From assembly GCF_009392895.1 (NCBI RefSeq), contig NZ_CP045488.1, positions 1 through 64,000 of the forward strand: a stretch of DNA of 64,000 nucleotides. Direction: 5' to 3'. This stretch comes from Natronorubrum aibiense. GTDB taxonomy: Archaea > Halobacteriota > Halobacteria > Halobacteriales > Natrialbaceae. The notes beneath the pieces are model-generated. The model saw only the letters and a program-made list of their open reading frames with translations, had not been told where the DNA came from and did no database searches. Below are positions 7,238 to 28,117 of the stretch, piece after piece (the stretch's first letter is position 1; each line of letters starts with the position of its first letter). Made by a program: the position numbers and the translations under genes.

Positions 7238-7339
7238 AGCGTAGCATCGTGGCCAATATAATTCCACCGGCACCCCGTCGATTCACCCGCGGGGCCCGGT
7301 CTCGACCGACGAACATAGGTCGATCACCGGTGAACAGCT

Positions 7340-7798: not shown

Positions 7799-7815
7799 GA
7801 CGGAGTCTCGTCGGC

Positions 7816-8145
7816 TCACTGCTCGAATCCGCTGAGGGTCGTCGAGTACGTGTCGCCGAAGACGTGGTGTTCGGTCACGGAAACACGCCGGAGCAGGCCG
7901 TCGACGGTCGCTTCGACGCGATAGCCGGCCTGGGCGAGATCGTCGGAGCAACTAGAGGGGATACTCGAGTCGTCCGCAGCGACGACGAGCAGATCCAGTC
8001 GCTCCTGTGAGCGCTCGTAGGCGGCGTGTGCCAACTCGACCGTCCCACACTCGCTCGAGTCGACGACGGGAAGCCAACCGAGACAGCCGGCGGTGAAGCC
8101 GAGGCCGCTTCCCGCGACGCTCGCAAGCAGCGCCCGTCTGTTCAT
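7816..8145 (-). CDS. Small Tat-exported lipoprotein
   Basis: A 109-aa predicted secreted lipoprotein of unknown function. It starts MNRRALLASVAGSGLGFTAGCLG: a twin-arginine-type N terminus, a hydrophobic stretch and a lipobox ending in Cys at residue 21. The mature part has three further cysteines and mixed polar sequence that I do not recognise. It lies on the minus strand between archease and rtcB, leaving 17 bases to the archease stop. The longer in-frame extension to 8514 reads antisense through the rtcB start and is not credible. Confidence 0.7.
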   Translation of the reverse strand: MNRRALLASVAGSGLGFTAGCLGWLPVVDSSECGTVELAHAAYERSQERLDLLVVAADDSSIPSSCSDDLAQAGYRVEATVDGLLRRVSVTEHHVFGDTYSTTLSGFEQ

Positions 8146-8323
8146 ATTTCCAATACGATAGGGGCGAACAAAGCCGTTCCGGTGGCTAACGTCGATCGGT
8201 CTCGAAGAGCCCCGTTCGATAGCGGCCATTCGTCTGGCAATGGGTGCGATGGCCAGCGAACGCGACTCGCGACGTCGCCGGCAGAGACGAACATCTTTGA
8301 TCGTTCGGAGTGGAGTCGTTCGT

Positions 8324-10794: not shown

Positions 10795-10803
10795 GAGTGA
10801 AAG

Positions 10804-11994
10804 CTAACGGTGTGGGTCGGTTGGAAGCGGTTCGTCGTACAGGCAGGCGGCGAGGAGCGCGACCCGCTCGGCGAGTGCATCGAGTTTCACGTACTCGTAG
10901 GTCTGGTGGGCTCCGTCGCCGACCGCACCGAACCCGTCGATCGTGGGGGCATGCTGGCTGGCGTCGTTCCCGTCGCTTGCACCACCCGAGCGCGTCCCTT
11001 CGAGCGTGAGTCCAAGTCGGTCCCCGAGCGTCTGGATCCGCTCCCAGAGCAGGCGATTCCCTGCCGTGGGTTCCATCGGCGGCCGTCCGAATCCGCCGTC
11101 GATCGTCAGTTTGGTTCCCGGCGTCGTCGCTTCGAGCGAGCGGATCTCCGCCGCGACGGCCTCGGCTGCGTCGTCGGTGGGGGCGCGGACGTCGACTTCG
11201 GCCCGTGCGTTCGGCGCGACGACGTTGGACCGAAGCCCCGCTTCCACCTGCCCGACGTTGACGGTGACGCCCGAATCGATGTCGGTGAGTTCGTGGAGTC
11301 GGTGAATGACAGTACCGAGTTCCTCCGTCGCACTGGCGCCTTCTTCGGGCTCGAGGCCGGCGTGGGCAGCCTTGCCCTCGATCGTGACTGTGAAGTGGCC
11401 GACAGCTTTCCGTGCAGTCTTGATCTTTCCCTCCGGGCCGCTGGCGGGCTCGAGCACGAATACCCGGTTCGCTTGCTTGGCGAGTTCGATGATCCGCGGT
11501 TTGGATTCGGGGCTGCCGATCTCTTCGTCGCTCGAGACGAGAACGTGAACCGGCAGCGACGACTCGAGCGAGAGGTCCTCGAGGGCCCGAAGCGCGAAGA
11601 CGGCCTGTGTCAGGCCGCCTTTCATATCGAGCGCGCCCGGCCCCTCGAGGACATCGTCCCGAATCTCGGGTGGGTCCTCCTCGACGGTCCCGAGCGGCCA
11701 GACGGTATCCGCGTGCCCGATCACGAGCTGGATCTCGTCGGCGTTATTGCGACCGGGTGACCAGGCCTCGAGCCGGCCGCCGGTTTCGTCACCCGGGATG
11801 CGCTCAGTCTCGAGCCCGAGCTCGTGGAAATCGCCCGCCAACCGATCGAAGAAGGCGTCGAACGTTTCTGGATTCTCCGTGGGCGTCTCCAGCTCGACAA
11901 GCTCGAGAAGAGACCGCTCTAGGTCCTCGCGATGGGCGTGGGCCCAGTCCAACAGTTGCTGTTCGACGGCGGATTCGTTTTCGGAAGCGGTCAT
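10804..11994 (-). CDS. M20-family metallopeptidase, carboxypeptidase G2-like
   Basis: A 396-aa zinc aminoacylase/carboxypeptidase. Motifs fit the CPG2 branch of M20: VIGHADTVWPLG (zinc His), GPGALDMKGG (bridging Asp), SSDEEIGSPES (catalytic and zinc Glu) and a late GDGAHQTYEY with the last zinc His. A dimerisation insert with VGHFTVTIEGKAAHAGLEPEEG lies near the middle. Relatives release C-terminal glutamate or cleave N-acyl amino acids. The flavin reductase upstream overlaps it by four bases and a DUF1611 gene follows closely, giving a three-gene unit. Substrate is not determined. Confidence 0.88.
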   Translation of the reverse strand: MTASENESAVEQQLLDWAHAHREDLERSLLELVELETPTENPETFDAFFDRLAGDFHELGLETERIPGDETGGRLEAWSPGRNNADEIQLVIGHADTVWPLGTVEEDPPEIRDDVLEGPGALDMKGGLTQAVFALRALEDLSLESSLPVHVLVSSDEEIGSPESKPRIIELAKQANRVFVLEPASGPEGKIKTARKAVGHFTVTIEGKAAHAGLEPEEGASATEELGTVIHRLHELTDIDSGVTVNVGQVEAGLRSNVVAPNARAEVDVRAPTDDAAEAVAAEIRSLEATTPGTKLTIDGGFGRPPMEPTAGNRLLWERIQTLGDRLGLTLEGTRSGGASDGNDASQHAPTIDGFGAVGDGAHQTYEYVKLDALAERVALLAACLYDEPLPTDPHR

Positions 11995-12596
11995 CGCTCG
12001 AACCCCTCCGGGAACGGGAACGCCTGACTCTCACTGATCGCAGCGAACCGGTCGGGATAGAGGTGCGCTAGCACCGGTGCCCGCTCGAGCAGCGTCTCGG
12101 GTTCGGCGTCGTCGCTGCGGTAGGCATCAGTGTGAACGTATTTGGCGACAACGGTGCCGGCGACGAGTTCGCCGTCGTCGAACTCGACGAATCGCTCGAG
12201 TTCGCATTCCAACACTCCGTACGCTCCAGCGACAGCAGGCGCGTCGACGGCGTCGGCATCGACCGTTTCGATTTCCGTAAGCGATGGTTTCGCCCCGTCT
12301 GAATCCCGGGGCGCTGCGGCGAGGCTGGCGTCGAGTATGTCATCGGGCCGAGGATAGCTGACGGTAAACACCCCCGTCCGTTCGACGTTCCCGTACGTCC
12401 CGTGTTCGGGCGTACAGACGAACCCGAACTGGTCCGACCAGCCCAGCGGCATCGCCATATGCTTCGGCGCCAGGTTCTCCGAGCCGTCTTCGTTACGTGT
12501 CCCGACAATCACCAGCGGAGCCGCCGTATACAGCGTCTCGAAAAACGACTGCTCCGGCTGCAGCGTGATGAGATCGGGATCAGTTGAGAGGGGCAT
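11991..12596 (-). CDS. Flavin reductase-like FMN-binding protein
   Basis: A 201-aa split-barrel protein of the flavin reductase-like family. The N-terminal LYTAAPLVIVGTRNEDGSENLAPKH and MPLGWSDQFGFVCTPEHGTYGNVERTG segments form the FMN-binding barrel in this family, and VAGTVVAKYVHTDAY is the last strand pair. It is the first gene of a minus-strand group with an M20 peptidase and a DUF1611 protein. Such proteins either reduce flavin with NAD(P)H or only bind FMN; the sequence does not settle which. Confidence 0.82.
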   Translation of the reverse strand: MPLSTDPDLITLQPEQSFFETLYTAAPLVIVGTRNEDGSENLAPKHMAMPLGWSDQFGFVCTPEHGTYGNVERTGVFTVSYPRPDDILDASLAAAPRDSDGAKPSLTEIETVDADAVDAPAVAGAYGVLECELERFVEFDDGELVAGTVVAKYVHTDAYRSDDAEPETLLERAPVLAHLYPDRFAAISESQAFPFPEGFER

Positions 12597-12611
12597 TTCG
12601 CTGTTCTATAT

Positions 12612-12627
12612 TGTTGCTCACACAACA
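12612..12627. promoter_or_regulatory. Inverted repeat upstream of the flavin reductase gene
   Basis: TGTTGctcacaCAACA, a 5-bp inverted repeat with a 6-base spacer, lies 16 bases before the flavin reductase ATG in AT-rich sequence where its promoter should be. Position fits an operator; no regulator is known, and short repeats like this occur by chance. Confidence 0.25.
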
Positions 12628-12750
12628 TACCGGTTTTGTCAGTTACAGACGAACGGGCAGTCACTCCGTTCGACGCCCGGTCGATGGTTCGAGTACCATC
12701 GGTCTCGATTTCGCTCGAAACTGCCGTCCAGCGGCATCGACCGCTCGCAG

Positions 12751-12969
12751 TCACTTCAGTCGGAACGGATTCTCGTCGTCTTCACCATCGCTGTCTTCGT
12801 CCTCGATTCCGTACGGTTTTCGTGCCGTGATCGTCACCGTCGCCTCAGGGGTATCCTCGTCGGCCCACGGGCTGTCGTAGGCCGAAATCTCGAGATCGGT
12901 GACGTCCCATCCCTCCGCTTCGATGAGTTCTACGAGGCGACGCTGGTCCTCGAGCATATCCTCGTCCAT
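12751..12969 (-). CDS. Small acidic conserved-looking protein
   Basis: A 72-aa protein of unknown function that starts MDEDMLEDQRRLVELIEAEGWDVTDLEIS and ends in an acidic tail (EDEDSDGEDDENPFRLK). The pattern of helix-strand-strand with halophilic composition supports a real gene. I choose the ATG at 12969; an in-frame start at 13086 would add 39 residues of basic, less halophile-like sequence and run into the moaA promoter. It lies between the flavin reductase promoter and moaA, divergent from the latter. Confidence 0.6.
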   Translation of the reverse strand: MDEDMLEDQRRLVELIEAEGWDVTDLEISAYDSPWADEDTPEATVTITARKPYGIEDEDSDGEDDENPFRLK

Positions 12970-13130
12970 ACACTCCCGTTCGTGGTAATTCCGGGTAGGT
13001 CTTCCGCTGTGCTTGAGGGTGATCAGCTCGTGACGGATCGCCAGAGCGTGTCGGGTCGGAAACCGAAATCGGTTACGAATGCCCAAAATTACCCGGGGTG
13101 TTTAAGCGGATCCGACTGCTACTGGGTGGC

Positions 13131-14120
13131 ATGCTCGCCGACGATTTCGGGCGCGAGGTAACCGGGGTCAGGGTTTCACTTACCGACCGGTGCAATTTCG
13201 ACTGCGTCTACTGTCACAACGAGGGGTTAGGGGATACTCGCGGACCGATGGATCCACAGGACGACGAGATGTCGACCGACGACGTCGTTCGGTTTCTCGA
13301 GGTCGCAGCCGAGTTCGACGTCGACTCGGTCAAGTTCACCGGCGGCGAGCCGATGCTGCGCCAGGACTTAGAGGAGATCATCGAGCGAACGCCCGACCAG
13401 ATGGAAGTCTCGTTGACGACCAACGGCACGTTCCTGCCCGGCCGGGCCGAGGCACTCGTAGATGCTGGCCTCGAACGGGTCAACGTCTCGCAGGACGCCC
13501 TCGATCCGAAAGACTTCGCCGAAATTACGAAAAGCGGCGCGTACGAGAAAGTCATCGAGGGCGTCGAGGCGGCGCTCGAGGCCGGACTCGATCCGGTCAA
13601 ACTCAACATGGTCGTCTTCGAGCACACGGCAGGCTACGTCCCGCAGATGGTCGACCACGTCGCCGAAAACGAAGGGATGCAGTTACAGCTGATCGAGTAC
13701 ATGCCAGAGCTGACGGGCAAGCCCGAATGGAACGTCGACATCGGGCGCGTTCACGACTGGCTGGCCGAGCAGGCCGACGAGATCGAACACCGCGAGATGC
13801 ACGACCGAAAACGGTACTGGGTCAGCAGCGACAACGGCGACGGACGGGGCATGGTCGAAATCGTCGACCCCGTCGAAAATCCGACGTTCTGTGCGAACTG
13901 TCACCGCGTTCGGGTGACCCATCAGGGGTATCTAAAGGGCTGTCTCAACCGCAACGACGACCTCAAACCGATGGGCGAGATGACCAAACCCGAGATCCGC
14001 GAGGCGTTTCGGGAAGTCGTCGCCAACCGCGTCCCCTACTACGGCGAGTACATGATCCGAAACGGCGACGGCGAGTGGGAGATCAACGACGAGTACATCG
14101 AGACCTACGCCGAGATCTGA
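13131..14120 (+). CDS. moaA: GTP 3',8-cyclase MoaA
   Basis: A 329-aa radical SAM enzyme that converts GTP to 3',8-cyclo-GTP, the first step of molybdopterin synthesis. The N-terminal cluster motif is CNFDCVYC at residues 21-28, followed by FTGGEP. The second [4Fe-4S] site, specific to MoaA, is visible near the C terminus as FCANC then CLNRNDD. The ATG at 13131 gives the normal N terminus; a TTTAAG box at 13110-13115 suggests a transcript start close to this ATG. The usual C-terminal double glycine of bacterial MoaA is absent. No other moa gene is in the window. Confidence 0.95.
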
Positions 14121-14214
14121 ATTTTTCGGCCAGTTGGTGCACTCGAGACTCAGTAAGCGACGGCCGAACGTACTCGAGTGTGAACCGGTGCCGTCGCGAC
14201 GGTCATTCGTTGCG

Positions 14215-14220
14215 CTTAAG
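14215..14220 (+). promoter_or_regulatory. TATA box upstream of tRNA-Ser
   Basis: CTTAAG in a GCGCTTAAGTACC context, about 85 bases before tRNA-Ser(GCT). It is the likely TATA box for the tRNA and possibly the S13 operon behind it. Confidence 0.4.
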
Positions 14221-14301
14221 TACCCGTCGCGGGTAGGTTCGGGTGCAATACGTGCAGGGGAGCGATCCCCGAGTCCGAGAGGGCGATGATAGAGACACGG
14301 T

Positions 14302-14384
14302 GTTGTGGTAGCCAAGCGGCCCAAGGCGCATGGTTGCTAACCATGTGGCGTCAAGCCTCCGGGGTTCGAATCCCCGCCACAACG
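14302..14384 (+). tRNA. tRNA-Ser(GCT)
   Basis: An 83-base class II tRNA. The 7-bp acceptor GTTGTGG pairs with CCACAAC, the anticodon arm is CATGG-TTGCTAA-CCATG with anticodon GCT (reads AGC/AGU), a long variable arm follows, and the T loop is GGTTCGAATCC. No CCA is encoded. It sits 74 bases before rps13. Confidence 0.96.
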
Positions 14385-14457
14385 TCGGATTCACTTGGCT
14401 GACTTTTCCGTCAGTCCAATTTGCAACGCGCGCACACCAGACACAGATACACGACAC

Positions 14458-14976
14458 ATGAGCGAGGAAGAACCTCAAGATCAACAAGACGACGAAGACC
14501 TTCAGTACTTCGTCCGCATCGGGCAAACCGACCTCGATGGGACGAAGACTGTCGAGCGCTCGCTCTCGGAGATGAACGGGATCGGTCGACGAACCGCCCG
14601 ACTCATCGCCGACGAAGCGGGTGTCGACCGAACAGCGACGTTCGGTCGACTCGACGACGACGTCATCGACAACGTCGTCGACATCGTAGAGAACTACGCT
14701 GGGAACGTTCCTGACTGGCTCAACAACCGTCAGTCGGACTTTTACTCCGGGGAGACGACCCACGAGATCGGTAACGATCTCCAGCTCACCCGCCAGCACG
14801 ACATCAACCGGATGAAGATGATCGACTCCTACAAAGGCGTCCGCCACAAGCGCGGCCAGAAGGTTCGCGGCCAGCGAACCAAGTCCACCGGTCGTACGGA
14901 GGGCACCATCGGAGTCAACGTCGAAGAAATCCGCGAAGAACAGGCCGAAGGCGGCGAAGAGGGTGAGGGCGAATAA
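14458..14976 (+). CDS. rps13: 30S ribosomal protein S13
   Basis: A 172-aa small-subunit head protein, longer than bacterial S13 as in other archaea. [33 protein letters not shown] is the start of the conserved helix-two-turn-helix core, and [22 protein letters not shown] is the basic C-terminal rRNA-binding tail followed by an acidic halophilic end. I use the ATG at 14458; earlier in-frame codons read into the leader behind tRNA-Ser. It is the first gene of S13-S4-S11-RpoD; its stop overlaps the S4 ATG by one base. Confidence 0.97.
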
Positions 14977-15497
14977 TGCCACTCGGCACCGACACCAAAC
15001 AGTACGAGACGCCGAATCACCCGTATCAGGGTGAGCGCATCGCCTCCGAACACTCCCTGCTCGACCGCTACGGGCTGTCGAACAAAGAAGAACTCTGGCG
15101 AGCGCAGTCCGAGCTTCGCTCCTACCGGCGCGAGGCTCGTGACCTGCTCGGTCAGGCCCAAGACGACGAGGCCGTCATCCGCCGCTCCGAGGAGTTCCTC
15201 GGTCGGCTCAAGCGCGTCGGCATCCTGAACGAAAGCGACGAACTCGGCGACGTGCTGAGCCTCGAGATCGAAGACGTTCTCGAGCGTCGTCTCCAGACGG
15301 TCGCCTACCGCAAGGGGCTTGCGAACACACCCCAGCAGGCTCGACAGTTCATCATCCACGGGCACGTCGTGGTCGGCGAACAGCGCCACTGCATCCCATC
15401 GTACGTCGTCGACGTCGACGAGGAGGACCTCGTCGCGTTCGACGAGAACAGCCCACTCGCAGACGAACTCCACCCGGAACGAGCGGAGGGTCAATAA
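14976..15497 (+). CDS. rps4: 30S ribosomal protein S4
   Basis: A 173-aa primary 16S rRNA-binding protein of the archaeal S4 type. The N terminus ([28 protein letters not shown]) and the S4 RNA-binding domain ([33 protein letters not shown]) are both complete. Translationally coupled to S13 by the TAATG junction and followed within two bases by rps11. Confidence 0.97.
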
Positions 15498-15498
15498 C

Positions 15499-15888
15499 AT
15501 GAGTCAAGACGACGAGAAATGGGGCGTTGCCCACGTACACGCATCGTTCAACAACACCGTCATGACCGTGACTGACCTCACGGGCGCGGAGACGATCGCC
15601 AAATCCTCCGGTGGGACGGCGGTCAAACAGAACCGCGACGAGGCATCGCCGTACGCGGCCATGCAGATGGCCGAGTCCATCGCCGAAGAGGTCAAAGCAG
15701 CCGGTATCACGGGCCTGCACGTTCGCGTCCGCGGCCCAGGTGGCAACCTTCAGAAGTCCCCTGGCCCAGGCGCACAGGCAACGATCCGCGCACTCGCCCG
15801 CTCGGGCATCGAGATCGGGCGCATCGAAGACGTGACGCCGATCCCGCACGACGGATCGCGCGCACCGAAAGGCAAGGGCGGCTACTAG
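15499..15888 (+). CDS. rps11: 30S ribosomal protein S11
   Basis: A 129-aa platform protein. [20 protein letters not shown] and the glycine-rich [28 protein letters not shown] segment are diagnostic, and the C terminus [16 protein letters not shown] is intact. The ATG at 15499 follows the S4 stop by one base; the longer upstream in-frame reading overlaps rps4 and is rejected. Confidence 0.98.
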
Positions 15889-15892
15889 ATCC

Positions 15893-16642
15893 ATGACACA
15901 AGACTACGACGTCGAGTTCGTCGAACACGGGGAACGGAACGCACAGTTCCTCGTCCGCGGTGTCACACCCGCGTTCGCCAACGGGCTTCGTCGCGCGATG
16001 CTCGCCGACGTCCCGACGTTGGCCATCGATACCGTCCGGTTCATCGAGAACTCGTCGGTCATGTTCGACGAGCAACTCGCACTCCGGCTCGGGCTCGTCC
16101 CGCTGACGACCCCACCCGAAGCCGAGTTCGCCGAGGACGACACCGTCACACTCTCGATCGACGTCGAAGGACCAGCCACCGCCTACTCGGGCGATCTCGT
16201 CTCGAGCGACGACCTCGTGCAACCCGCAGACGAGAAGATTCCGATCATCGACCTCAAGGACAACCAGCGCCTCGAGGCCGAGGCTGACGCCGTCTTCAAC
16301 CGCGGCAAGAATCACGCGAAACATCAGGGAGCCGTCTCCGCCGGGTATCGACACCTCCAGCGCGTGAAGGTCGTCGACGACCTGCCGGAGTTCGAAGAGC
16401 AGGAGTCCCAGATCGTCCGCGGTGTCATCGAAGTAGACGGTGAACTGATCCAGACGAGCGAGTTCGACCACGATCTGTCGAACCGCTACCCTGGAAAGCA
16501 AGTCGAGGTCGAAGACGTGCCGAACGCGTTCGTCTTCAACATCGAAACGGACGGCTCGTTCCCGGTCGACGAACTGGTCACGCGAGCCGCCGACTCGATC
16601 GAAGCACGCGCGGCCGAGCTCGAAAACGCAGTACAGCTATAG
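15893..16642 (+). CDS. rpoD: RNA polymerase subunit D (Rpo3)
   Basis: A 249-aa archaeal homologue of the alpha N-terminal domain/Rpb3, which pairs with subunit L to start polymerase assembly. [30 protein letters not shown] is the core dimerisation motif. The inserted domain (about 150-210) has no cysteine at all, so this D subunit cannot carry the iron-sulphur clusters seen in some archaeal D proteins. Last gene of the S13 operon, four bases after rps11. Confidence 0.96.
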
Positions 16643-16730
16643 ACAATGATCCGATGCCCCAACTCCCGACACTACGAGGCCGCTGCCGGCGCCGTGAGCG
16701 ACGAGACCGGCATGCGTTCGCGACTTGGAA

Positions 16731-16746
16731 TCGAAAGGGGTTTTAC
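16731..16746 (+). promoter_or_regulatory. BRE and TATA box for tRNA-Leu
   Basis: TCGAAA (16731-16736) followed by GGTTTTAC gives a BRE-TATA pair about 27 bases before the predicted 5' end of tRNA-Leu. It would also restart transcription for the L18e operon. Confidence 0.55.
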
Positions 16747-16772
16747 GGGGCAACGGATAGACAGAAGTGCGA

Positions 16773-16857
16773 GCAGGGATAGCCAAGTCAGGCCAACGGC
16801 GCAGCGTTCAGGGCGCTGTCTCGTAGGAGTCCGCAGGTTCAAATCCTGCTCCCTGCA
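16773..16857 (+). tRNA. tRNA-Leu(CAG)
   Basis: An 85-base class II tRNA. Acceptor GCAGGGA pairs with TCCCTGC, the anticodon arm is CAGCG-TTCAGGG-CGCTG with anticodon CAG (reads CUG), the T arm is GCAGGTTCAAATCCTGC, and the discriminator is A. No CCA is encoded. It lies between rpoD and rpl18e. Confidence 0.96.
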
Positions 16858-17004
16858 TCCACTTCTACACCGTCGATCGACGCTCAGTCGCGGTTCGGTC
16901 ACGACTGGCCGAGTGGCGACCCGACTCGTTCGACACACAACCGATTCCACGATCGGTGAGACGCTTCCTCGTCTCCCCGATACGACCGACTTTGGAGGAA
17001 ACCA

Positions 17005-17358
17005 ATGAGTAGCAAGACTAATCCGAGGCTCAACGATCTTATCGCCGAGCTCAAGTCGACGTCCCGCGAGACGGACGCCGACGTCTGGCGAGACGTTGCG
17101 GACCGACTCGAAAAGCCCCGGCGCACCCACGCAGAGGTGAACCTGGGCCGCATCGAGCGATACGCACGCGAAGAAGAGACTGTCGTCGTTCCCGGCAAAG
17201 TGCTGGGCTCCGGCGCCTTACAGAAAAACGTCACCGTCGCAGCCGTCGACTTCTCCTCGTCCGCCGAGACGAAGATCGACGCCGTCGGTGACACGGTACC
17301 GCTCGAGCAGGTGCTCGAAGAGAACCCACAGGGATCCAACGTACGGGTGATTCGATGA
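17005..17358 (+). CDS. rpl18e: 50S ribosomal protein L18e
   Basis: A 117-aa archaeal/eukaryotic large-subunit protein related to bacterial L15. [42 protein letters not shown] opens the family, and [24 protein letters not shown] is the conserved core. First protein gene of L18e-L13-S9-RpoN-RpoK-eno-S2; its stop overlaps the rpl13 ATG by four bases. Confidence 0.97.
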
Positions 17359-17804
17359 GTATCGCAGAGTTCGATGCGGACGTCGTCGTCGACGCCCGTG
17401 ACTGTATCCTTGGTCGCGTCGCCAGCGAAGTGTCCCAGCGCGCCCTCGACGGCGAGCGTGTCGCCATCGTCAACGCCGAAGACGCCGTCATCACCGGCGA
17501 TAAAGAGGACATCTTCGAGACCTACCGCACGCGCATCCAGCTCGGCTCCGACAGCGGGCCGTACTACCCACGCCGACCCGACACGATCTTCAAGCGCTCC
17601 GTCCGTGGGATGTTGCCCTACAAGAAGCCGCGTGGCCGCGAAGCGTTCTCGAACGTTCGTGTCTACCTTGGCAACCCGTACGAGGACGACGACGACCGCG
17701 AGGCCGAGATCCTCGAGGGAACGTCGCTGGATCGACTTTCGAACATCCGCTTCGTCCACCTGGGCGAAGTTTCCGAACAACTCGGTGCTAACGTCACATG
17801 GTAA
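17355..17804 (+). CDS. rpl13: 50S ribosomal protein L13
   Basis: A 149-aa protein that binds early to 23S r[41 protein letters not shown] is the diagnostic N-terminal half, and [20 protein letters not shown] the conserved middle. It overlaps rpl18e by four bases and rps9 by seven, typical of a tightly packed operon. Confidence 0.97.
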
Positions 17805-18196
17805 CGAATACGAGTGGAAAGAAAAAGACCGCCGTCGCTCGAGCGACCGTTCGCGAAGGCGAGGGTCGCGTTCGAATCAACTCCAAGCCAGTCGAACTGG
17901 TCGAACCGGAGATGTCCCGGCTCAAGATGCTCGAGCCGTTCCGCATCGCCGGTGAGGACCTCCGCAGCGACATGGACGTCGACGTTCGTGTCGAGGGTGG
18001 CGGAATCAGCGGTCAGGCAGACGCCGTCCGCACGGCCATCGCACGCGGGATCGTTCAGCACTCGAACGACGCCGAACTCCGTGACGCGTTCATGGAGTTC
18101 GACCGTTCGCTGCTGGTCAACGACGTTCGACAGTCCGAACCGAAGAAGTGGGGCGGCCCGGGCGCTCGGGCACGCTACCAGAAGTCCTACCGCTAA
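17798..18196 (+). CDS. rps9: 30S ribosomal protein S9
   Basis: A 132-aa protein that reaches the decoding centre. [28 protein letters not shown] opens the fold, [20 protein letters not shown] is the conserved glycine-rich segment, and it ends in the basic [11 protein letters not shown] tail that contacts P-site tRNA. Start ATG overlaps rpl13. Confidence 0.97.
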
Positions 18197-18584: not shown

Positions 18585-19786
18585 CACTGATCACAGACAT
18601 TCGACTCCGACGGATCCTCGATTCGCGTGGCAACCCCACCGTCGAGGCAGACGTCATCACCGAAAGCGGTGGATTCGGCCGTGCAGCGGCACCAAGTGGC
18701 GCCAGCACGGGCGAGTACGAGGCCGTCGAGCGACCGCCCACCGAGGCGATCGCCGCGGCTCGAGAGCACGCCGTCTCCCGACTCGTCGGCGAAGCCTACG
18801 CGGGCAACCAGCGGGAAGTCGACTCGATCCTGCACGCTGCCGACGGCACCGACGATTTCTCCGAAATCGGCGCCAACAGCGCCGTCGCCATCTCGATGGC
18901 CGCGGCAAAAGCCGGTGCCGACGTGCTCGGTGCGCCGCTGTTTCAGCACTTAGGCGGTGCGTTCCGTGGCGAGAACTTCCCGGTTCCACTCGGTAACGTC
19001 GTTGGCGGTGGCGAACACGCCGCTGACGCGACGGACATTCAGGAGTTTTTGGTCGCCCCGGTCGGCGCACCGAGCGTCGAAGACGCCGTCTTCGCCAACG
19101 CCGCCGTCCACAGCACCGTCGCGGACCTCCTCGAGGACCGTGACGTCCCGTGTGGAAAAGGCGACGAAGGCGCGTGGGCGCCGTCGATCGACGACAGCGA
19201 GGCCTTCGAGATTGTCGACGAAGCGGTCTCGATCGTCGAAGACGACGTTGGCTTCTCTATCGGCTTCGGACTTGACGTCGCTGGTGCGGAGCTGTACGAT
19301 GCTGACTCGGAGACCTACGAGTACAGCGACACGAGTCGCGACACCGACGAACAGATCGCCTACATCGCGGATCTGGTCCGCGAGTACGATCTCGTCTACG
19401 TCGAGGACCCACTCGACGAGAACGATTACGACGCGTTCGCCGAACTCACCGACGAGGTCGGCGATCAGACGCTGATCTGTGGTGACGACCTGTTCGTCAC
19501 GAACACCGACCGTCTCGTCGACGGGATCGACCGCGGCGCAGCCAACAGCATCCTGATCAAGCCAAACCAGATCGGGACGCTGACCGACGCCTTCGACGCG
19601 ATCGAACTCGCGACGCAGAACGGCTACGACTCCGTTATCTCCCACCGCTCGGGCGAGACCGAGGACACGACGATCGCACACCTTGCCGTCGCAACCGATG
19701 CACCCTTCATCAAGACGGGTGCCGTCGGCGGCGAGCGAACCGCCAAGCTAAACGAGCTCATCAGAATCGCAGACGACGCGACATGA
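18581..19786 (+). CDS. eno: Enolase
   Basis: A 401-aa glycolytic/gluconeogenic enzyme interconverting 2-phosphoglycerate and phosphoenolpyruvate. [15 protein letters not shown] and [14 protein letters not shown] open the protein; metal ligands lie in [23 protein letters not shown] and [11 protein letters not shown], the catalytic lysine in [11 protein letters not shown], and the signature [19 protein letters not shown] follows. Its position inside the ribosomal/RNA polymerase operon is conserved in archaea. It overlaps both neighbours by four bases. Confidence 0.98.
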
Positions 19787-20592
19787 CAGACAACGACGCA
19801 ACCCAGGAAGGGCTCGACGCTGCCGAAGACGAGATCGACGAGGAGCCAGCCGAAGGGGCTGGTCCCGCCGCCGATCCCGCGGACGACGTCGAGCCAGTTG
19901 ACGAACAGCCCGCCGACGCCACCGAGGCCGACGCCGACGCAGAACCAGCCGACGAGACGGAAGCCGACGATGCCGGTCCGACCCTCGACGACGACGTGAT
20001 GTCCGACGAGGAGGCCGACCTGCTCATCCCCGTCGAGGACTACCTCGGCGCTGGTGTCCACATCGGGACCCAGCAGAAGACCAACGACATGGAGCGGTTC
20101 ATCCACCGCGTCCGGACCGACGGTCTCTACGTCCTCGACGTCTCGAAGACCGACGGCCGTATCCGCACGGCTGCGGACTTCCTCTCGAACTACAACCCAG
20201 AGCAGATTCTGGTCACCTCGAGTCGCCAGTACGGTCGGTTCCCGGCGGAGAAGTTCGCCGAAGCCGTCGGCGCTCGCGCCCGCACCGGTCGATTCATCCC
20301 GGGCACGCTGACCAACCCTAAATACGACGGCTACATTGAGCCCGATGTGCTCGTCGTTACGGACCCGATCGGCGACGCCCAGGCCGTCAAAGAGGCGATC
20401 ACGGTCGGTATCCCGGTCATCGCAATGTGTGACTCGAACAACCAGGTCAGCAACGTCGACCTCGTCGTCCCGACGAACAACAAGGGTCGTAAGGCCCTTT
20501 CGGTCGTCTACTGGCTGCTCGCCAACGAAGTCCTCGACCGCCGCGGTGCCGAGCCATCGTACTCGCTCGAGGACTTCGAGAGCATGGTCTAG
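19783..20592 (+). CDS. rps2: 30S ribosomal protein S2
   Basis: A 269-aa protein. An unusually long acidic, Ala/Asp/Glu-rich N-terminal extension (about residues 1-72) precedes the S2 domain, which starts at [32 protein letters not shown]. The conserved [13 protein letters not shown] and [24 protein letters not shown] segments are intact. The extension is a halophile feature rather than a fusion. Last gene of the operon. Confidence 0.96.
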
Positions 20593-20691: not shown

Positions 20692-20817
20692 ATGCTCGAT
20701 GCACTTTTCGACTTCGAAGAAGAAAAGATGCCGCTGCCAGTGATCGCCGCGACAACGGCACTGATCGCGATTTTCGCCGTCGGAATCCCGTACCGCGTTC
20801 TCGTGAGTATTTTGTAG
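20692..20817 (+). CDS. 41-aa single-span membrane protein
   Basis: A short open frame, MLDALFDFEEEKMPLPVI, then one hydrophobic helix (IAATTALIAIFAVGI), ending YRVLVSIL. The layout of an acidic N terminus, one membrane span and a short tail looks like a genuine microprotein rather than noise. It follows rps2 by 100 bases on the same strand. Function unknown; too small for normal gene callers. Confidence 0.5.
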   Translation: MLDALFDFEEEKMPLPVIAATTALIAIFAVGIPYRVLVSIL

Positions 20818-21106
20818 GACATAGAGCGCGTATAGCGCTGTCCACACCAACGGACGTGCAGCCCCCGGTTCGAATTTAAATACGAAGGCGAGCCCAACCC
20901 GGGCATGACTCCGATGGTCTCGCTCGAGGCGTGGCACAGGTCTCGGCACACGTCGCGTTCCGTCTCGTCCCTCGGTATCGTCCCAGCAGGAAACACACGG
21001 GATTCGGTGTCGAGGCCGTCCCCAGTGGCCATCCAGACACCGCAGTCGATCGCTCTCGGCAGCACCGGAGCGTCTGTCGACTGCGAGGCCGATTCTACGG
21101 AGGACC
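20818..21106. other. Gap with a strong promoter, no convincing gene
   Basis: A very good TATA box, ATTTAAATA (20874-20882), points rightwards. The predicted transcript start (about 20905) coincides with an ATG that opens a 72-codon frame (20905-21123), but its residues are not halophile-like and it overlaps the next gene. I read this as the promoter and leader, possibly with decayed coding sequence, for the three-gene secreted module. Confidence 0.4.
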
Positions 21107-21604
21107 ATGTCACGGGCAGCTAGAGCCCAGACCGAACCGCTGGCCGTGATGGCGCTTCTGACCGGCATCGCGCTGTACACCGTCTATCTCGGCAGTGTGC
21201 TCCCCGGTATAAGCGACCGCACGATCGAAGAGACGGCGATCGAGCGCATCAGAGACGCACTCCGAGGCGACGGCCGTGGCTCCGTTCCCGTCTACAGGTA
21301 CACCGCCGATCCGGACAAACCGTTGCGCGAGGCGCTCGATCAAGAGTCACTCCCGAACGGCAAGAACACCTACATAGCGATCAAAGGCTACGAAAACGGT
21401 GAACCGATCGTTTTCGTGTCGGCACACTTCGATTCCGACGGCGACGATCTGAAGGAACGACAGGTCGAATCGACACATCCCGACTACGGTCCGCCTCGAG
21501 AGGCTGGCAAGTCGATAAGGACCGGGATCGCAACCCGGCCGATCTCGATCGAAGTGGCGAAGGCCGACGTTCGCGGCGGTACGCTGCACGTGGAGGTCTG
21601 GTGA
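21107..21604 (+). CDS. Pilin-like secreted protein (DUF7285-like)
   Basis: A 165-aa protein. It starts SRAARAQTEPLAVMALLTGIALYTVYLGSVLPG: a short basic lead, a QTEP motif and a single hydrophobic helix, the layout of type IV pilin-like and pseudopilin proteins. The end, RGGTLHVEVW, fits haloarchaeal proteins I recall as DUF7285, which occur in clusters with pilus-type secretion genes; I could not verify this by search. It overlaps the next gene by four bases. Likely exported and anchored with the C-terminal part outside the cell. Confidence 0.6.
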   Translation: MSRAARAQTEPLAVMALLTGIALYTVYLGSVLPGISDRTIEETAIERIRDALRGDGRGSVPVYRYTADPDKPLREALDQESLPNGKNTYIAIKGYENGEPIVFVSAHFDSDGDDLKERQVESTHPDYGPPREAGKSIRTGIATRPISIEVAKADVRGGTLHVEVW

Positions 21605-22788
21605 CCGTGAACCGCCGTCGATTCGATGCCGAACGTGGTGTCAGTACCGTTGTCGACGTCACGCTGGCACTGTTACTTATCAGTGCAAGCGTAGCCGTCG
21701 TCGGCACGTATCTGGCCACCGCTTCTGACGAGCAGACGAGCAGTGCCACCGGGCCGGATCAAACTGTAGCTGCCCGTTCTCATGGGGACATCGACGGCCG
21801 GTCAGCGGCCCGAACGACCGAGGTCCTGAGCACGTCGACCATCACTGTCACGTACAGTCTCGAGGACGTCCGTGATGAAGACACGTTCTCCGAACCGATC
21901 ATCACGAACGCGCACACGTACACGCGAACCGACCACGGCTCGGCGCTCGGACTGGTCGCCGACGCCGCAGTCACGAACCACCAGCTCGGTGGTGAGCCCG
22001 TGCTGGCCTACGGCGACGAGTACGAGGACGCCGTCGACTGGGCGATTCGACACGCCCTGCTCGGTGCCGACCGAGAGTTCTACATCGTCGCCGAGTGGGA
22101 GCCCTACGACGGTGCTGGTATCAATGGCACGGCGACAGCCGGCGAACGACCACCTCCCACTGCGGACGTCTCGAGTACGACAACGACGGTTGCAAGCGGG
22201 TTTTCAGCAGTCGACGAGAGTAAAATCGAGGCAAACTGGCTGGAAGCTGACGACTGGTGGGACGGCTGGATCGACGAGATGGCCGACGAACACCCGAAGA
22301 TCAACGATTCGTCGGACGTTCCTGGATTGGAAGGATCGGACAACAAGTCGTACGCGGCATCTGGCACCGTTATTGGCGACGAAATCGTCCATGGTCTTTT
22401 CCCGCCCGAATCGTCCCAGTACGCACTGGAAGATCAGGGAATCCGACGATCGCTCAAAGTCTATCACTACCAGTCGATCGTCGAGACTATCGGCGATTTT
22501 TCGTTCCGAAGTGCGGACACACATCGCCCGTTGGCTCGCTCGCAAGCACGGGCCGACGAAGCGAACCGCAAGGTGCTCGTCGGACAGGAAGGCGGTTACG
22601 ACGTGACCGATGCGGACGCACTCGCCGCATGGATTGCGGCGAACATTCCGCGCGCCTTTGCCGACGAATTCGACGAGATCGACGCCCACTACGACGGCGA
22701 CGAGCGTGACGAACGGAAAGCCGAGCTCGTCGCCGGTGCAGTGGCGACCGAAGACGTGACGATCACCATCCAGACCTGGGACGAATGA
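21601..22788 (+). CDS. Pilin-like secreted protein (DUF7284-like)
   Basis: A 395-aa protein with GTG start. Near its N terminus RGVSTVVDVTLALLLISASVAVVGTYL is a type III/IV pilin-like hydrophobic segment, followed by a long acidic extracellular part rich in Thr, Asp and Glu. It resembles the haloarchaeal family I remember as DUF7284 (not verified). Overlaps of four bases on both sides show that the three genes form one operon. No ATPase, platform protein or prepilin peptidase is present in the window, so the module would need one elsewhere. Confidence 0.6.
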   Translation: MTVNRRRFDAERGVSTVVDVTLALLLISASVAVVGTYLATASDEQTSSATGPDQTVAARSHGDIDGRSAARTTEVLSTSTITVTYSLEDVRDEDTFSEPIITNAHTYTRTDHGSALGLVADAAVTNHQLGGEPVLAYGDEYEDAVDWAIRHALLGADREFYIVAEWEPYDGAGINGTATAGERPPPTADVSSTTTTVASGFSAVDESKIEANWLEADDWWDGWIDEMADEHPKINDSSDVPGLEGSDNKSYAASGTVIGDEIVHGLFPPESSQYALEDQGIRRSLKVYHYQSIVETIGDFSFRSADTHRPLARSQARADEANRKVLVGQEGGYDVTDADALAAWIAANIPRAFADEFDEIDAHYDGDERDERKAELVAGAVATEDVTITIQTWDE

Positions 22789-25700
22789 GACGAACCCGAC
22801 TACACACGATTTCGATCGCGGACGACGACAGAGCACGGGTCCCCTTCGCCGTTATCGGTGTCTTGCTCCTCGTGAGTTCCGTGCTGATCGTCGCGACACT
22901 CCAGACGAGACACGAGCCCGAGATCGACCGCGGCACGGAGCTGGCGATCGACCGCGCCGAAGCGTATGCGATCAGCGAACTCCGTCACGCGACCGTCCGT
23001 GCTACCGACGAGGTCGTCCGCTCACCGGTGACGACCGTCGATTCCGGGATGGACGGCGTTCTCGACGAGAAAACCGCCTTCGAAGATCAGACTCGCCTGA
23101 CGATTCTCACGAAAGCCACTGCAACACTCGACGGTCGGACACAGGCCGTTGGGCAGGGTCGATCCGTCGAGGTGTCACTTCCTGAGGTCGACGACTGGAC
23201 TGATCCGGACGACCTCGAGAGAGGGCTCGAGTCCGTCACGCTCGCGGAAGGCGACGGGATCATGGACGTGACGATCGAAGGCGTCGAATTCATCGTCAAA
23301 GACGGCAACGGCGACGTCGAGACGGTCGTCTCACGCGACCTCACCGTTTCGGTAGGGATGACCATGATGGCCCTCCACGAGCGTGTGGAGGCATACGAAG
23401 CGCATCTGAACACGGGCATGCTCGAGGGCGTCGACCAGCGGGAAGGATACGGGTACGATCTCGCAAAACGCCTGTGGCCGCTCGTCTGGGGTAAGGCCTA
23501 CTACGATCGACTACTCGGCGACCCGGAAGATCGTGCGTTCGAGAACGTCACCCCGAACGAGCACACCGAGGTGATGGCTAACGACGCACGATTGACCGCC
23601 CAACAGGAGGTCTTCGGTACGCAAGACGAGTACGGTAACCGCGTGATGTCGGGGCCGTTGCTATGTATGTCGTACGACCTCTCGGATAGCGCACTCGATC
23701 TCGGCGAGAAGTATGATTTCGATGCTATTGCCGACGATCTCCATCCCGATGAGAACGTCAGTACCGTCGAGGAACTCTGTGCAGACGGCGTCATCACTCC
23801 GGACGGCGAGTTACCGGATATGCCGACTGTCGAGGAGGTCGTGCTGGGGATGCTCGAGAACGTCGATAAGGACGGTACGATCCAGGGCCATCCGTTCGCC
23901 GATATGTCGATGTACGAGATGGAAACCGGGCTTGGACAAGACGACCTCGAAGGCGAGATGCGAACAGCGCTCAACGAGACAGGTCGGTTCAATGAGGCGT
24001 ATCTCGAGGATTATTATGGTGATAGTGAGAGGTCAGATGTTGATGATAAGAATCACAATGAAAACGCATTAGCAGAAACCCAAGATATCCAAGATAATCT
24101 TAACAATCTCAGGAGTGGTGCAGTTCAAGATTTGGATAATACAGATAGTGTTATCAATGATGCCTATACAGTGCATGGAAAGCTCGGAACCGTCAGCAGT
24201 TCCCCATCGATGGATGGTCTTGGGCATCCACTTCCTCCTCTGCCAGATGAATACGACGCCAGCAATCATACGGAAGTTGATCGCGTGTACGTGACGACCA
24301 ATACCGATGTAGAGGGAAGTATCGACAAAGTCACCGAAGACAGCAGTCGTTCTGGTCTCAAGCAATCACTCGTCTCGATCGATGTCAAAGTCGAGACGAG
24401 ATACGAGACCTATCGAGCGTGGAACAACACAACGACCAACTCTTCGGTCGATGTCTGGGAACACGACAACCGATATACGGATTTTACTGCCTCGTTCGAA
24501 CTCGATGGTGAGTTTGCACCCGGTTTAGAGACCGATCCGAACAGTATCGAGCACGTGCTCGATCAGGGTGGTTCTCCAGATCCATACCTCGGCGGACCAA
24601 CCAACTGGGGAGACGCCGCTGATGAAGTGACGAGGGCGTTCTTTGGACAGGACTTCGACAGCGACTCCGAGTTCGAGCGTTGGCTGAGTGAAAGGGTCAA
24701 TAATATTGAGTCGCGAAACGACTTCAGGGATGCTATTAACTACGACAGCAGCTTCGACGAGGATATTCAACTCTCACCGCGTAACGAGGGGACACTACAT
24801 ACTTACATTGTCTGGGAGGACCTGTTCGAGGTGCATAACGAGACGGTAACCGAAATTGAACCGGTTGAGGCGGAGGTCATGGAGATGCTGACGGCTGACG
24901 AGAGCCCGATACGGGAGATGGACGAGAGTATCGCGGAAATGGAAGCGAAGCACGTGGATGACCGTGATAATTTCGAGAACGCACCGGATGTCGCTAGGAT
25001 GGAGGCTCGGAAGGTGTACTTCGACAATATGTGTAAGTATGTTGATGGACTCGCCAGTGGACACGAGAGAGTGACGACTGGCGGCAGGAATCTCATAGAC
25101 AGCCTCCTTGGCGGATTTCTAGATTCCGTCAATGAGATCATCAATGGCCCAATGAACCTCGTTGACGAAATGTTGGGCACCGGTGAAGAACTGCTTCAGG
25201 ACGAAGATGATGCCAAAATCGACACTCCGGACGTACTGAACGATGTTCATGTCACTGTCGACGGCTCGCCGACGTATCACTCCTCACAGGTGGCGGTCAA
25301 CCAGACCGAAGTGCCGGCCGTACGAGCGGCAGGCGATGGCCCGCTCGAGATCGACGATGAGATGAATTTCGCACCGATGGGTTCCGGGTATGAAAACGAG
25401 ATCGGTCACCCGGGCTTCCCATTGATTCCATGGCCACCGCTGTTCTATCTACAGGTGGACGCGTGGCAAATCGAACTCGAAGGGGAGTACGCTCGCTTCG
25501 AAGTAGAGGCGACTAGCGGCGATCCATCGGTGACCGATGCGACGACCTATATCCGCGAGGACAAGCACGTTACACTCGAGACACCCGACGGTAACAAACT
25601 TGAGTTGGGATCAACCGATCCAATCAGCTACGAGAACAGCCAGACGATCCTCGTCGTCGTACCTGCACCGCAGTTCTTACCACAGGGCGCACCCGGTGTC

Positions 25701-25844
25701 GGTGATAATCAACAGGGTGGTGATGCACCAGGTCAGTTGTGTCATCACTTTGGGGCGATACTGGTCCAAATTTCGGTTCAATTGATAACGGATCAGAAAA
25801 TGGGGACTGCTTGTGACGCTAACCTATCCATGAGAATTAAATAG
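22785..25844 (+). CDS. Large secreted, membrane-anchored protein (DUF7286-like), 3' frameshift likely
   Basis: An open frame of 1019 codons. DDDRARVPFAVIGVLLLVSSVLIVATLQTR gives one N-terminal membrane anchor, followed by an acidic, helix-rich extracellular region; the family resembles what I recall as DUF7286. Bases from about 23990 to 24190 are strikingly AT-rich with codons unlike the flanks (GAT, AAT, TTA). At the 3' end the annotated frame finishes with hydrophobic, basic residues (MRIK), whereas another frame from 25745 reads SLWGDTGPNFGSIDNGSENG and stops at 25816. That acidic ending is far more halophile-like, so a one-base deletion near 25740 is probable. Confidence 0.6.
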   Translation: MRRTRLHTISIADDDRARVPFAVIGVLLLVSSVLIVATLQTRHEPEIDRGTELAIDRAEAYAISELRHATVRATDEVVRSPVTTVDSGMDGVLDEKTAFEDQTRLTILTKATATLDGRTQAVGQGRSVEVSLPEVDDWTDPDDLERGLESVTLAEGDGIMDVTIEGVEFIVKDGNGDVETVVSRDLTVSVGMTMMALHERVEAYEAHLNTGMLEGVDQREGYGYDLAKRLWPLVWGKAYYDRLLGDPEDRAFENVTPNEHTEVMANDARLTAQQEVFGTQDEYGNRVMSGPLLCMSYDLSDSALDLGEKYDFDAIADDLHPDENVSTVEELCADGVITPDGELPDMPTVEEVVLGMLENVDKDGTIQGHPFADMSMYEMETGLGQDDLEGEMRTALNETGRFNEAYLEDYYGDSERSDVDDKNHNENALAETQDIQDNLNNLRSGAVQDLDNTDSVINDAYTVHGKLGTVSSSPSMDGLGHPLPPLPDEYDASNHTEVDRVYVTTNTDVEGSIDKVTEDSSRSGLKQSLVSIDVKVETRYETYRAWNNTTTNSSVDVWEHDNRYTDFTASFELDGEFAPGLETDPNSIEHVLDQGGSPDPYLGGPTNWGDAADEVTRAFFGQDFDSDSEFERWLSERVNNIESRNDFRDAINYDSSFDEDIQLSPRNEGTLHTYIVWEDLFEVHNETVTEIEPVEAEVMEMLTADESPIREMDESIAEMEAKHVDDRDNFENAPDVARMEARKVYFDNMCKYVDGLASGHERVTTGGRNLIDSLLGGFLDSVNEIINGPMNLVDEMLGTGEELLQDEDDAKIDTPDVLNDVHVTVDGSPTYHSSQVAVNQTEVPAVRAAGDGPLEIDDEMNFAPMGSGYENEIGHPGFPLIPWPPLFYLQVDAWQIELEGEYARFEVEATSGDPSVTDATTYIREDKHVTLETPDGNKLELGSTDPISYENSQTILVVVPAPQFLPQGAPGVGDNQQGGDAPGQLCHHFGAILVQISVQLITDQKMGTACDANLSMRIK

Positions 25845-25903
25845 CTATTACACACTATCTGAACGATAAATGCGTGTATGCGAATGTTGATTAATCTGCC
25901 AAT

Positions 25904-26002
25904 TCAGGCGTCTTCAACCGCATACAAGGTTCCATCAGTAGATGGAAGATAAATTGAATGATCATAAACTGTTGGTGGAGCAATAAACCCAGCGTCACTC
26001 GA
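25904..26002 (-). pseudogene. C-terminal scrap of a PQQ-type beta-propeller gene
   Basis: Thirty-two codons on the minus strand read as one propeller blade: SDAGFIAPPTVYDHSIYLPS, then TDGTLYAVEDA and a stop. The pattern (P-x-V-x-D-x-x-I/V-Y-x-x-S/T-x-D-G-x-L-Y-A) is the classic PQQ/BamB-like repeat. Upstream the frame continues only through the mvk promoter and antisense to mvk, so the rest of the gene is missing. The stretch is AT-rich against its surroundings. Confidence 0.55.
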
Positions 26003-26041: not shown

Positions 26042-27028
26042 ATGGCAGTCTCGAGCGCTCCCGGGAAGGTGTATCTGTTTGGGGAGCACGCGGTAGTCTA
26101 CGGCGAGCCCGCGGTTCCGTGCGCCATCGAGGTACGGGCGCGGGTTGGCGTCGAGAAACGGGCAGACAGCAAACTGCGGATTCATGCCGAAGATCTCAGT
26201 CTGGATGGGTTCACGGTGGAGTACGGTGGGACGGCCGATGGGCCGCCCGACGTCGACGTTTCGGAGTCGCTGCTGACTGCGGCGATGGGATACGTCGACG
26301 AAGCGATCGAGCAGGTTCGAGACGTCACTGGTGAGGAAGACGTTGGCTTCGATGTAACAATCGAAAGTGAGATCCCGCTCGGAGCAGGCCTCGGTTCGTC
26401 CGCGGCCGTCGTCGTTGCCGCGATCGACGCCGGAACCCGCGAATTCGGCACGACGCTCGAGATCGACGAACTCGCCGAGCGAGCCTATCAGACCGAGTAC
26501 GAGGTACAAGGTGGACAGGCCTCCCGAGCCGACACGTTCTGTTCGGCGACGGGCGGTGCCGTCCGAGTCGAAGGCGACGACTGCCGGTCGATCGAGGCCC
26601 CTGACCTGCCGATCGTCATCGGATTCGACGGTGGGGCCGGCGACACCGGTGAACTCGTGGCGGGCGTGCGGCAGTTGCGCGAGCAGTACGACTTTGCAGC
26701 GGATACCGTCGATGCGATCGGAGACATCGTTCGAAACGGTGAAGAGGCCCTCGAGGAAGGTGATCTCGAGGAACTCGGTCGGCTAATGGACTTCAATCAC
26801 GGACTCCTGTCGGCGCTCGGCGTCTCCTCGCGCTCGCTCGATTCGATGGTCTGGGCGGCCCGCGACGCCGGTGCTGACGGCGCAAAGTTGACAGGTGCCG
26901 GCGGCGGCGGCTGTATCGTCGCACTCGACCCGACCGACGAGACCGAGACGGCCCTGTCGTACACGCCGGGCTGTGCGGACGCTTTCCGCGCTGAACTCGC
27001 CGAAACCGGGGTGAAGCGCCTCGAATGA
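26042..27028 (+). CDS. mvk: Mevalonate kinase
   Basis: A 328-aa GHMP kinase phosphorylating mevalonate in the isoprenoid pathway that feeds archaeal ether lipids. APGKVYLFGEHAVVYGEPAVPCAI is the substrate-binding N terminus, IPLGAGLGSSAAVVVAA the ATP-binding GHMP loop, and KLTGAGGGGCIVAL the C-terminal motif 3. It overlaps the isopentenyl phosphate kinase gene by four bases, and RNase J and GGPP synthase follow: a conserved haloarchaeal group. Confidence 0.97.
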   Translation: MAVSSAPGKVYLFGEHAVVYGEPAVPCAIEVRARVGVEKRADSKLRIHAEDLSLDGFTVEYGGTADGPPDVDVSESLLTAAMGYVDEAIEQVRDVTGEEDVGFDVTIESEIPLGAGLGSSAAVVVAAIDAGTREFGTTLEIDELAERAYQTEYEVQGGQASRADTFCSATGGAVRVEGDDCRSIEAPDLPIVIGFDGGAGDTGELVAGVRQLREQYDFAADTVDAIGDIVRNGEEALEEGDLEELGRLMDFNHGLLSALGVSSRSLDSMVWAARDAGADGAKLTGAGGGGCIVALDPTDETETALSYTPGCADAFRAELAETGVKRLE

Positions 27029-27915: not shown

Positions 27916-27930
27916 ACCCGGGCGTGTATG

Positions 27931-28117
27931 GGCCACTAGCGAAACCCGCGGGCAAGTGCGTACGGGGCTTACGAGTGTCGTGAGCCGGCTGGAGGACCCA
28001 CCTCTTCGTGCGCATAGCGGGATGGCCGACGTGCTGTAAGACGCCGGGGCCGCACAACCGGGAGTCCGCGGACCGTTTCGATGAGAGTCCACGACGCGGC
28101 TTTCAGTACAACGAACC
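27931..28117 (+). ncRNA. Candidate structured RNA or rnj leader
   Basis: No frame codes here, but pairing is extensive. GGCCA (27931-27935) pairs with TGGCC (28023-28027); CCCGC (27945-27949) with GCGGG (28017-28021); GTGCGTACG (27956-27964) with CGTGCGCAT (28007-28015), all nine pairs forming with three G-U. Inside this nested helix are two hairpins: GGCTTACGA-gtg-TCGTGAGCC (27966-27986) and GAGG-accca-CCTC (27992-28004). A further stem, CCGCG/CGCGG, lies near 28067-28100. With its own TATA box this could be a free RNA of 100-180 bases or a long rnj 5' leader. It is too short for RNase P or SRP RNA, and I see no clear H/ACA ending. Class unknown. Confidence 0.5.

Follow-up and report, generated by a model that had tools for sequence, protein, structure and literature searches.

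Between the genes for ribosomal protein S2 and mevalonate kinase of Natronorubrum aibiense stand three overlapping genes, DUF7285, DUF7284 and DUF7286, whose products resemble pilins at their N-termini. How did such a set come to stand at this site without a motor? The genes lie in positions 1 to 64,000 of contig NZ_CP045488.1 (the whole 64,000-nucleotide stretch is called the window). The initial annotation, made from the sequence alone, suggested an orphan set of pilus-type secretion substrates acquired by transfer. From gene content and order in related genomes, we consider it about 80% probable that the trio is the filament half of a pilus cluster, apparently of the pilB2 type, that the motor half was apparently deleted from a plasmid, and that the genes left behind are in early decay.

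Motor and filament genes in Natronorubrum and its relatives

DUF7284 was found in 37 of 61 genomes (that of the window and 60 relatives). In G021 the genes form a single cluster (L052), in the order HerA-like ATPase, DUF7310 coiled coil, DUF7311, secretion ATPase (T2SSE), TadC-like protein, DUF7283, DUF7285, DUF7284, DUF7286, an opposite-strand PQQ-propeller protein and a ParA/DUF7125 gene. This order is kept through DUF7286 in G028 (L039), where DUF7285 was not reported by tblastn and was seen by eye as an open reading frame. The ATPase and TadC-like genes stand just upstream, in the L052 order, in 16 of 31 named GTDB loci, several of which are the same contigs as other loci examined. Open reading frames of relatives were called by a simple script, and some of their start codons are wrong. 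By tblastn, a CetZ gene adjoins the cluster in L079 and L096; one was also seen by eye beside the cluster in L043, a locus on the L095 contig. In L045 a CetZ gene adjoins the trio, and CetZ was confirmed by Pfam for L045 and L095. In relatives, the subunit genes are thus found in conserved order beside other components of the pilB2/pilC2 type. Gene order and the CetZ neighbourhood are the two features that apparently link the cluster to the pilB2 family (arCOG01818). The trio apparently encodes the filament part of a type IV pilus system of haloarchaea, of the Halobacterium pil-2 type, whose motor genes some relatives carry beside CetZ.

In Natronorubrum the cluster is divided between two loci. 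All nine congeners have the motor half, which runs from the HerA-like gene to the genes for the ATPase and the TadC-like protein and includes ParA/DUF7125, at a place other than rps2-mvk. The filament half is at rps2-mvk in six of them. The full trio is found there in G001, G003, N. bangense (G006), N. sulfidifaciens (G007) and N. thiooxidans (G008); N. halalkaliphilum (G004) has DUF7283, DUF7285 and DUF7284 at this site, with DUF7286 and a PQQ gene elsewhere (L061). G002, N. texcoconense (G005) and G009 have none of the set at rps2-mvk and carry DUF728x genes elsewhere, so that the same three genes do not stand here in all relatives. DUF7283 is at rps2-mvk in G001, G003, N. halalkaliphilum and N. 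bangense, and beside the motor in N. sulfidifaciens and N. thiooxidans. Loci L034 and L037 of G002 and N. texcoconense, on contigs of about 210 kb, hold DUF7283-7284-7286 sets without a detected DUF7285, besides the other sets of these genomes.

The motor half was not found in the genome of the window. At E 1e-4 this genome gave two T2SSE-family matches, C1:2178134 and the weaker C1:1602159, both chromosomal and far from the locus, which agrees with the earlier remark that no secretion ATPase is nearby; there is none inside the rps2-mvk interval. The ATPase at C1:2178134 is, we assume, of the PilB3 type, and each of the ten Natronorubrum genomes has a match of the C1:1602159 kind. A search of the genome with a congener's ATPase protein returned only C1:2178134, at 28% identity; searches of the genome for the congener's TadC-like protein and for the DUF7283 family, the latter present in 9/9 congeners, returned nothing. 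Hence neither the cognate ATPase and TadC-like protein of the pilB2/pilC2-type system, which 9/9 congeners have, nor the full subunit set with DUF7283 was found in N. aibiense.

A plasmid contig suggests how the motor was lost. In a DNA search with the motor locus of N. sulfidifaciens (40 of 439 candidates scored), both flanks of the locus matched contig C4, a plasmid, and query positions 6440-18133 (about 11.7 kb) were not there. The left side of the junction, which lies at C4 3363-3379, has 93% DNA identity, and the right side starts inside gene g391, of which codons 122-390 were aligned and the first 121 codons are gone. We read the junction as a deletion scar. Insertion of the motor locus into the sister plasmids, in place of a deletion here, is disfavoured because the junction lies inside g391. 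The trio would therefore be an orphan because its cognate motor locus was apparently deleted from the plasmid, and not because the substrates were captured alone. In the same DNA search, the stretch read as deleted gave two short chromosomal matches (212 and 118 bases), neither of them in the ATPase or TadC-like gene.

In relatives that carry the motor, the DUF728x proteins would be prepilins, cut by prepilin peptidase and polymerised into an adhesive pilus by their own ATPase/TadC pair. DUF7286, with about 1000 residues, would probably be at the pilus tip, and the PQQ propeller is proposed to be a surface accessory. In N. aibiense, with its own motor gone, the pilus would no longer be built by that motor and the gene set would be decaying.

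The trio, its remnants and the rps2-mvk interval

All three genes are on the plus strand: DUF7285 at 21107..21604 (165 residues, N-terminus RAQTEPLA...), DUF7284 at 21601..22788 (395 residues, N-terminus ERGVSTVVDV..., no lesion seen) and DUF7286 at 22785..25844 (1019 residues, pilin-like N-terminus DDRARVPFAVIG...). They overlap by four bases at each of the two junctions, as the initial annotation had it. All Pfam matches are above the curated cut-off of 27 bits: DUF7285 with E 1.1e-21 and 78 bits, DUF7284 with E 8.7e-76 and 255.9 bits, and DUF7286 with E 1.8e-108 and 364.8 bits in three stretches, the best covering 1-373 of 1000 positions. The flanking genes, on the left at 19783..20592 (ribosomal protein S2) and on the right at 26042..27028 (mevalonate kinase), both on the plus strand, are taken to be rps2 and mvk, following the initial annotation. 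No Rfam match was obtained inside the interval at the gathering threshold.

Type IV prepilins start with a class III signal peptide followed by one hydrophobic helix. Judged by eye, each protein of the trio appears to have a comparable arrangement: a short charged stretch, a motif conserved across aligned relatives (RAQTEP in DUF7285, ERGVSTV in DUF7284, RARVPF in DUF7286) and then a single hydrophobic helix, which spans residues 11-43 in the predicted model of DUF7284 and 18-41 in that of DUF7286. The pilin-like character first proposed for these proteins is consistent with these motifs.

The trio had been described as flanked by debris, with a strong promoter and a non-coding gap on the left and a PQQ-propeller scrap on the right. 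A TATA-like box is indeed present (TTTAAATAC, 20875..20883, plus strand), 21 bases upstream of an ATG that is the old DUF7283 start codon. The box, as TTTAAATAC or TTTAAGTAC, is at the corresponding place in six of the eight sequences tested by exact-pattern search, the exceptions being G001 and N. bangense, and a TTTAAATAC-like box with its ATG precedes an intact DUF7283 gene in N. halalkaliphilum and in G026, from another genus. The gap, in contrast, is not non-coding. A 72-codon open reading frame (20905..21123, plus strand) begins at the DUF7283 start position, and its stop overlaps the start of DUF7285, as the stop of DUF7283 itself does in N. halalkaliphilum. From these two ends, the gap after rps2 is a shrunken DUF7283 gene, with its start and stop retained and its interior gone, and not a non-coding insert. 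Similar shells of 63 and 68 codons, the stop again overlapping the DUF7285 start, are present in N. sulfidifaciens and N. thiooxidans. A functional small peptide encoded by the shell is unsupported, the ratio of nonsynonymous to synonymous polymorphism (pN/pS) being 0.77 between two species; we guess that start and stop were kept for translational coupling. In Natronolimnohabitans sp. A-GB9 (L070, about 9247-9986), the same box is followed by an ATG that starts an open frame of 234 codons, ending where DUF7285 ends; no DUF7283 was detected in L070, and this frame is perhaps another shrunken or fused DUF7283.

On the right, the propeller scrap was correctly recognized. The last 30 codons and the stop of a PQQ/beta-propeller gene are at 25904..25996 (minus strand); they align with the C-terminal end of the PQQ protein of relatives and are joined to the DNA upstream of mvk, the rest of the gene (about 1.2 kb in N. 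sulfidifaciens) being gone. By these matches, the debris on both sides is what is left of lost genes of the module, DUF7283 and PQQ.

Comparison of the interval across relatives confirmed that it is variable. Of 20 fetched intervals, 18 gave both S2 and Mvk, and the distance between the two ranges there from about 0.26 kb (G011) to about 13.3 kb (G026), in line with the earlier statement that these genes are closer together in some haloarchaea. Other intervals contain a ThiN-type regulator, an ABC transporter with a phosphonate-type binding protein, or a glycosyltransferase/DUF354 pair. Judging from the range of distances and the varied contents, rps2-mvk is a place at which genes are gained and lost. 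DUF7283 and the trio are at rps2-mvk in G026 as well, and the trio with a PQQ gene is there in Natronolimnohabitans sp. A-GB9. In the DUF7284 tree, G026 is placed beside N. halalkaliphilum with a support of 0.93, which indicates that the module moved between lineages. G036 (L026), labelled as another genus, is placed inside Natronorubrum beside the group of the window by an Eno-S2-Mvk tree (support 0.93); it has no trio at rps2-mvk.

Three further observations concern the surroundings. First, a conserved open reading frame for a 41-residue, one-helix protein lies directly 3' of rps2 (20692-20817); among the 18 intervals of relatives in which S2 was found, 16 have it after rps2, and it has no Pfam match. 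Second, a GC-rich stretch at about 27930-28117, between the first and the second gene that follow mvk, has no long plus-strand open reading frame and no Rfam match at the gathering threshold. Third, Rfam identified a leuA-Halobacteria cis-regulatory RNA at 62151-62203 (71 bits).

Probable decay, selection and alternative readings

Two of the three genes carry lesions. DUF7285 has lost four residues of its N-terminal helix that are kept in 15/15 aligned relatives. In DUF7286, of which relatives have intact copies, a frame change in the last 35 codons or so removes the C-terminal tail of the relatives. Two cysteines are present within the last 45 residues in 15 of 19 aligned relatives; the altered tail also has two cysteines, only one of them at a shared position.

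AT-rich patches in the largest gene had been taken as unlike the rest of the chromosome. Such a stretch does exist, with about 45-54% GC compared with about 62%. However, the dip (about codons 400-800 of DUF7286) is common to all six orthologs compared, and for this reason a recent foreign origin by composition is rejected. Within the same gene, a tract of about 1.2 kb at 24285-25485 (approximate positions) has 90-99% DNA identity to N. sulfidifaciens, compared with 71-91% for the rest of the gene, the tail apart; this contrast suggests recombination, and the middle of DUF7286 is a probable recombination tract.

The loss of the motor can be set against the distribution of the two halves. Among 243 genomes of the order (requested completeness at least 90%), DUF7284 was counted at E 1e-5 (175 genomes) and the cognate ATPase at E-values no higher than 1e-60, with four candidates scored per genome (172 genomes). 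Both were present in 170 genomes, DUF7284 only in five, the ATPase only in two and neither in 66, so that 170 of the 177 genomes with either have both (Fisher p 9e-51, relatedness ignored). Three of the five genomes with DUF7284 only were not counted as true orphans. In G181, fragments of the ATPase lie in different frames next to the cluster, which is broken or misassembled; in G242 and G256, DUF7284 is near a contig start and the cluster is apparently cut by contig ends, an ATPase piece being found at the end of another contig in G256. The genome of the window and G013 remain. In G013 (L045, 1083-15796), CetZ has as neighbours long uninterrupted frames for DUF7285, DUF7284, DUF7286 and PQQ, yet searches of this genome for the ATPase, the TadC-like protein and DUF7283 gave no hit. 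From its gene content, the locus looks like a cetZ-adjacent pilus site from which the motor was removed.

Several results weigh against a decaying filament half whose motor was deleted. First, the right flank of the plasmid junction has only 66% protein identity, and a rearrangement is possible there. Second, the TadC-like protein is weakly matched by Pfam, with no match for the N. sulfidifaciens copy and one below the cut-off for L039. Third, the structure models give no convincing pilin match: that of DUF7284 (predicted local distance difference test, pLDDT, 75.9) has no clear structural match, and for residues 47-199 of the DUF7286 model (pLDDT 63.3) the best match is a Thermus competence pilin with Z 5.3, below the reliable range. 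Fourth, the frame change of DUF7286 could be a sequencing error, a caveat for this lesion only. Fifth, purifying selection is still visible: on the window branch, DUF7284 has a ratio of nonsynonymous to synonymous substitution rates (dN/dS) of about 0.17 and DUF7286 one of about 0.22, compared with 0.18-0.20 and 0.10-0.15, respectively, on the two sister branches. DUF7285 has 0.82 on the window branch, a value from a short gene with few changes. When unique changes were pooled, the window branch had 35 nonsynonymous and 59 synonymous changes and the two sister branches 55 and 142; relaxed selection is not demonstrated by this nonsynonymous excess (pooled Fisher p 0.14; p 0.045 for DUF7285 alone). 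These ratios and counts mean that the loss is recent or that the proteins still matter. Finally, G013, without motor and DUF7283, has the trio and PQQ open, which indicates that a trio can persist without its cognate motor.

Two related readings follow from the persistence of the genes, and both are unlikely. One holds that the module is reduced but functional, its pilins being assembled by the remaining ATPase at C1:2178134, presumably of the PilB3 type, with its membrane partner. This would suit the dN/dS of about 0.2 for the two long genes and the open trio of G013. It would also suit Haloferax volcanii, in which the poor adhesion of a pilB1-C1 deletion is reported to be rescued when PilB3-C3 is supplied in trans; the converse rescue, of PilB3-C3 by PilB1-C1, failed (PMC6491452). 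It is further countered by the loss of DUF7283, of nearly all the PQQ gene and of the DUF7286 end, by the helix deletion in DUF7285, and by the rarity of genomes that keep DUF7284 without the cognate ATPase (5/243), although some T2SSE-family ATPase is present in 59 of the 61 genomes. In the other, equally doubtful, DUF7285-DUF7284-DUF7286 would be a separable unit that can outlive its own motor and either is built by the ATPase that is left or serves as a surface complex anchored in the membrane. The ATPase, the TadC-like protein and DUF7283 are missing from both N. aibiense and G013, which have kept the trio at different sites; this suggests that DUF7283 would belong functionally to the motor and that the trio may act without it.

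Capture of a pilus-type substrate set alone, by horizontal transfer into rps2-mvk, is very improbable: the interval is variable, the module has crossed genera, and G002 and N. texcoconense carry DUF7283-7284-7286 on plasmid-size contigs (the 20 kb retrieved for G002 contains no ATPase), but the same site is occupied in 6/9 congeners (one of them partially), the AT-rich dip is shared by the six orthologs compared, DUF7283 and the PQQ gene stand beside the trio in relatives, and the motor half is in every congener. Of the proposal of an orphan acquired by transfer, the orphan state is thus retained and the new acquisition is not, since five of nine congeners have the full trio at the same site, a sixth congener has two of the three genes there, and G026, of another genus, has the trio there too.

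Relation to known pili

The closest known system is the pil-2 type pilus of Halobacterium salinarum, whose motor is called pilB2/pilC2 and whose regulon lies next to cetZ2; as far as the published descriptions seen here go, the likeness extends to the ATPase, the TadC-like protein, the pilin-like genes, their order and the CetZ neighbour (PMC4292770, PMC9856176). Unlike pil-2, the Natronorubrum cluster is in two loci, and the genome of the window is without the motor half and has DUF7283 as a shell; the CetZ neighbours are placed here at family level, not as CetZ2. The ATPase with its TadC-like partner and several pilin genes also resemble archaeal type IV pili of clade 4 (4C/4F), and DUF7310 resembles by its description the haloarchaeal intracellular coiled-coil component of subclade 4F, in the portion of Makarova et al. 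2016 on which we draw (PMC4858521); this likeness is one of gene content, not of an ATPase tree or arCOG mapping. PilB1-C1 of Haloferax volcanii is alike in its pilus ATPase/PilC pair and adjacent predicted pilin gene, to judge from the part of the study used (PMC6491452). DUF7283, DUF7284 and DUF7286 are present in the Haloferax volcanii control genome, a comparison of genome content and not of the Haloferax operon, and DUF7284 and DUF7286 also match in the Methanosarcina acetivorans control.

None of DUF7283, 7284, 7285, 7286, 7310 and 7311 was named in a paper of the literature searched, and a literature search on Natronorubrum pili gave nothing on this system. Compared with the published accounts consulted, the division of the cluster, the apparent loss of the motor locus and the DUF7283 shell are apparently new; the system itself is a known predicted pilus regulon.

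The genome of N. aibiense, otherwise ordinary, appears to be a clean natural motor knock-out with the filament genes in place. It bears on the question whether motors and pilin sets are interchangeable in haloarchaeal pili, as was proposed (PMC4858521) and shown in one direction (PMC6491452). The co-occurrence of DUF7284 with the ATPase and the damage to the orphan argue for dedicated pairing, and the open orphan of G013 argues against it. A likely context is also given to the Pfam families DUF7283-7286, DUF7310 and DUF7311.

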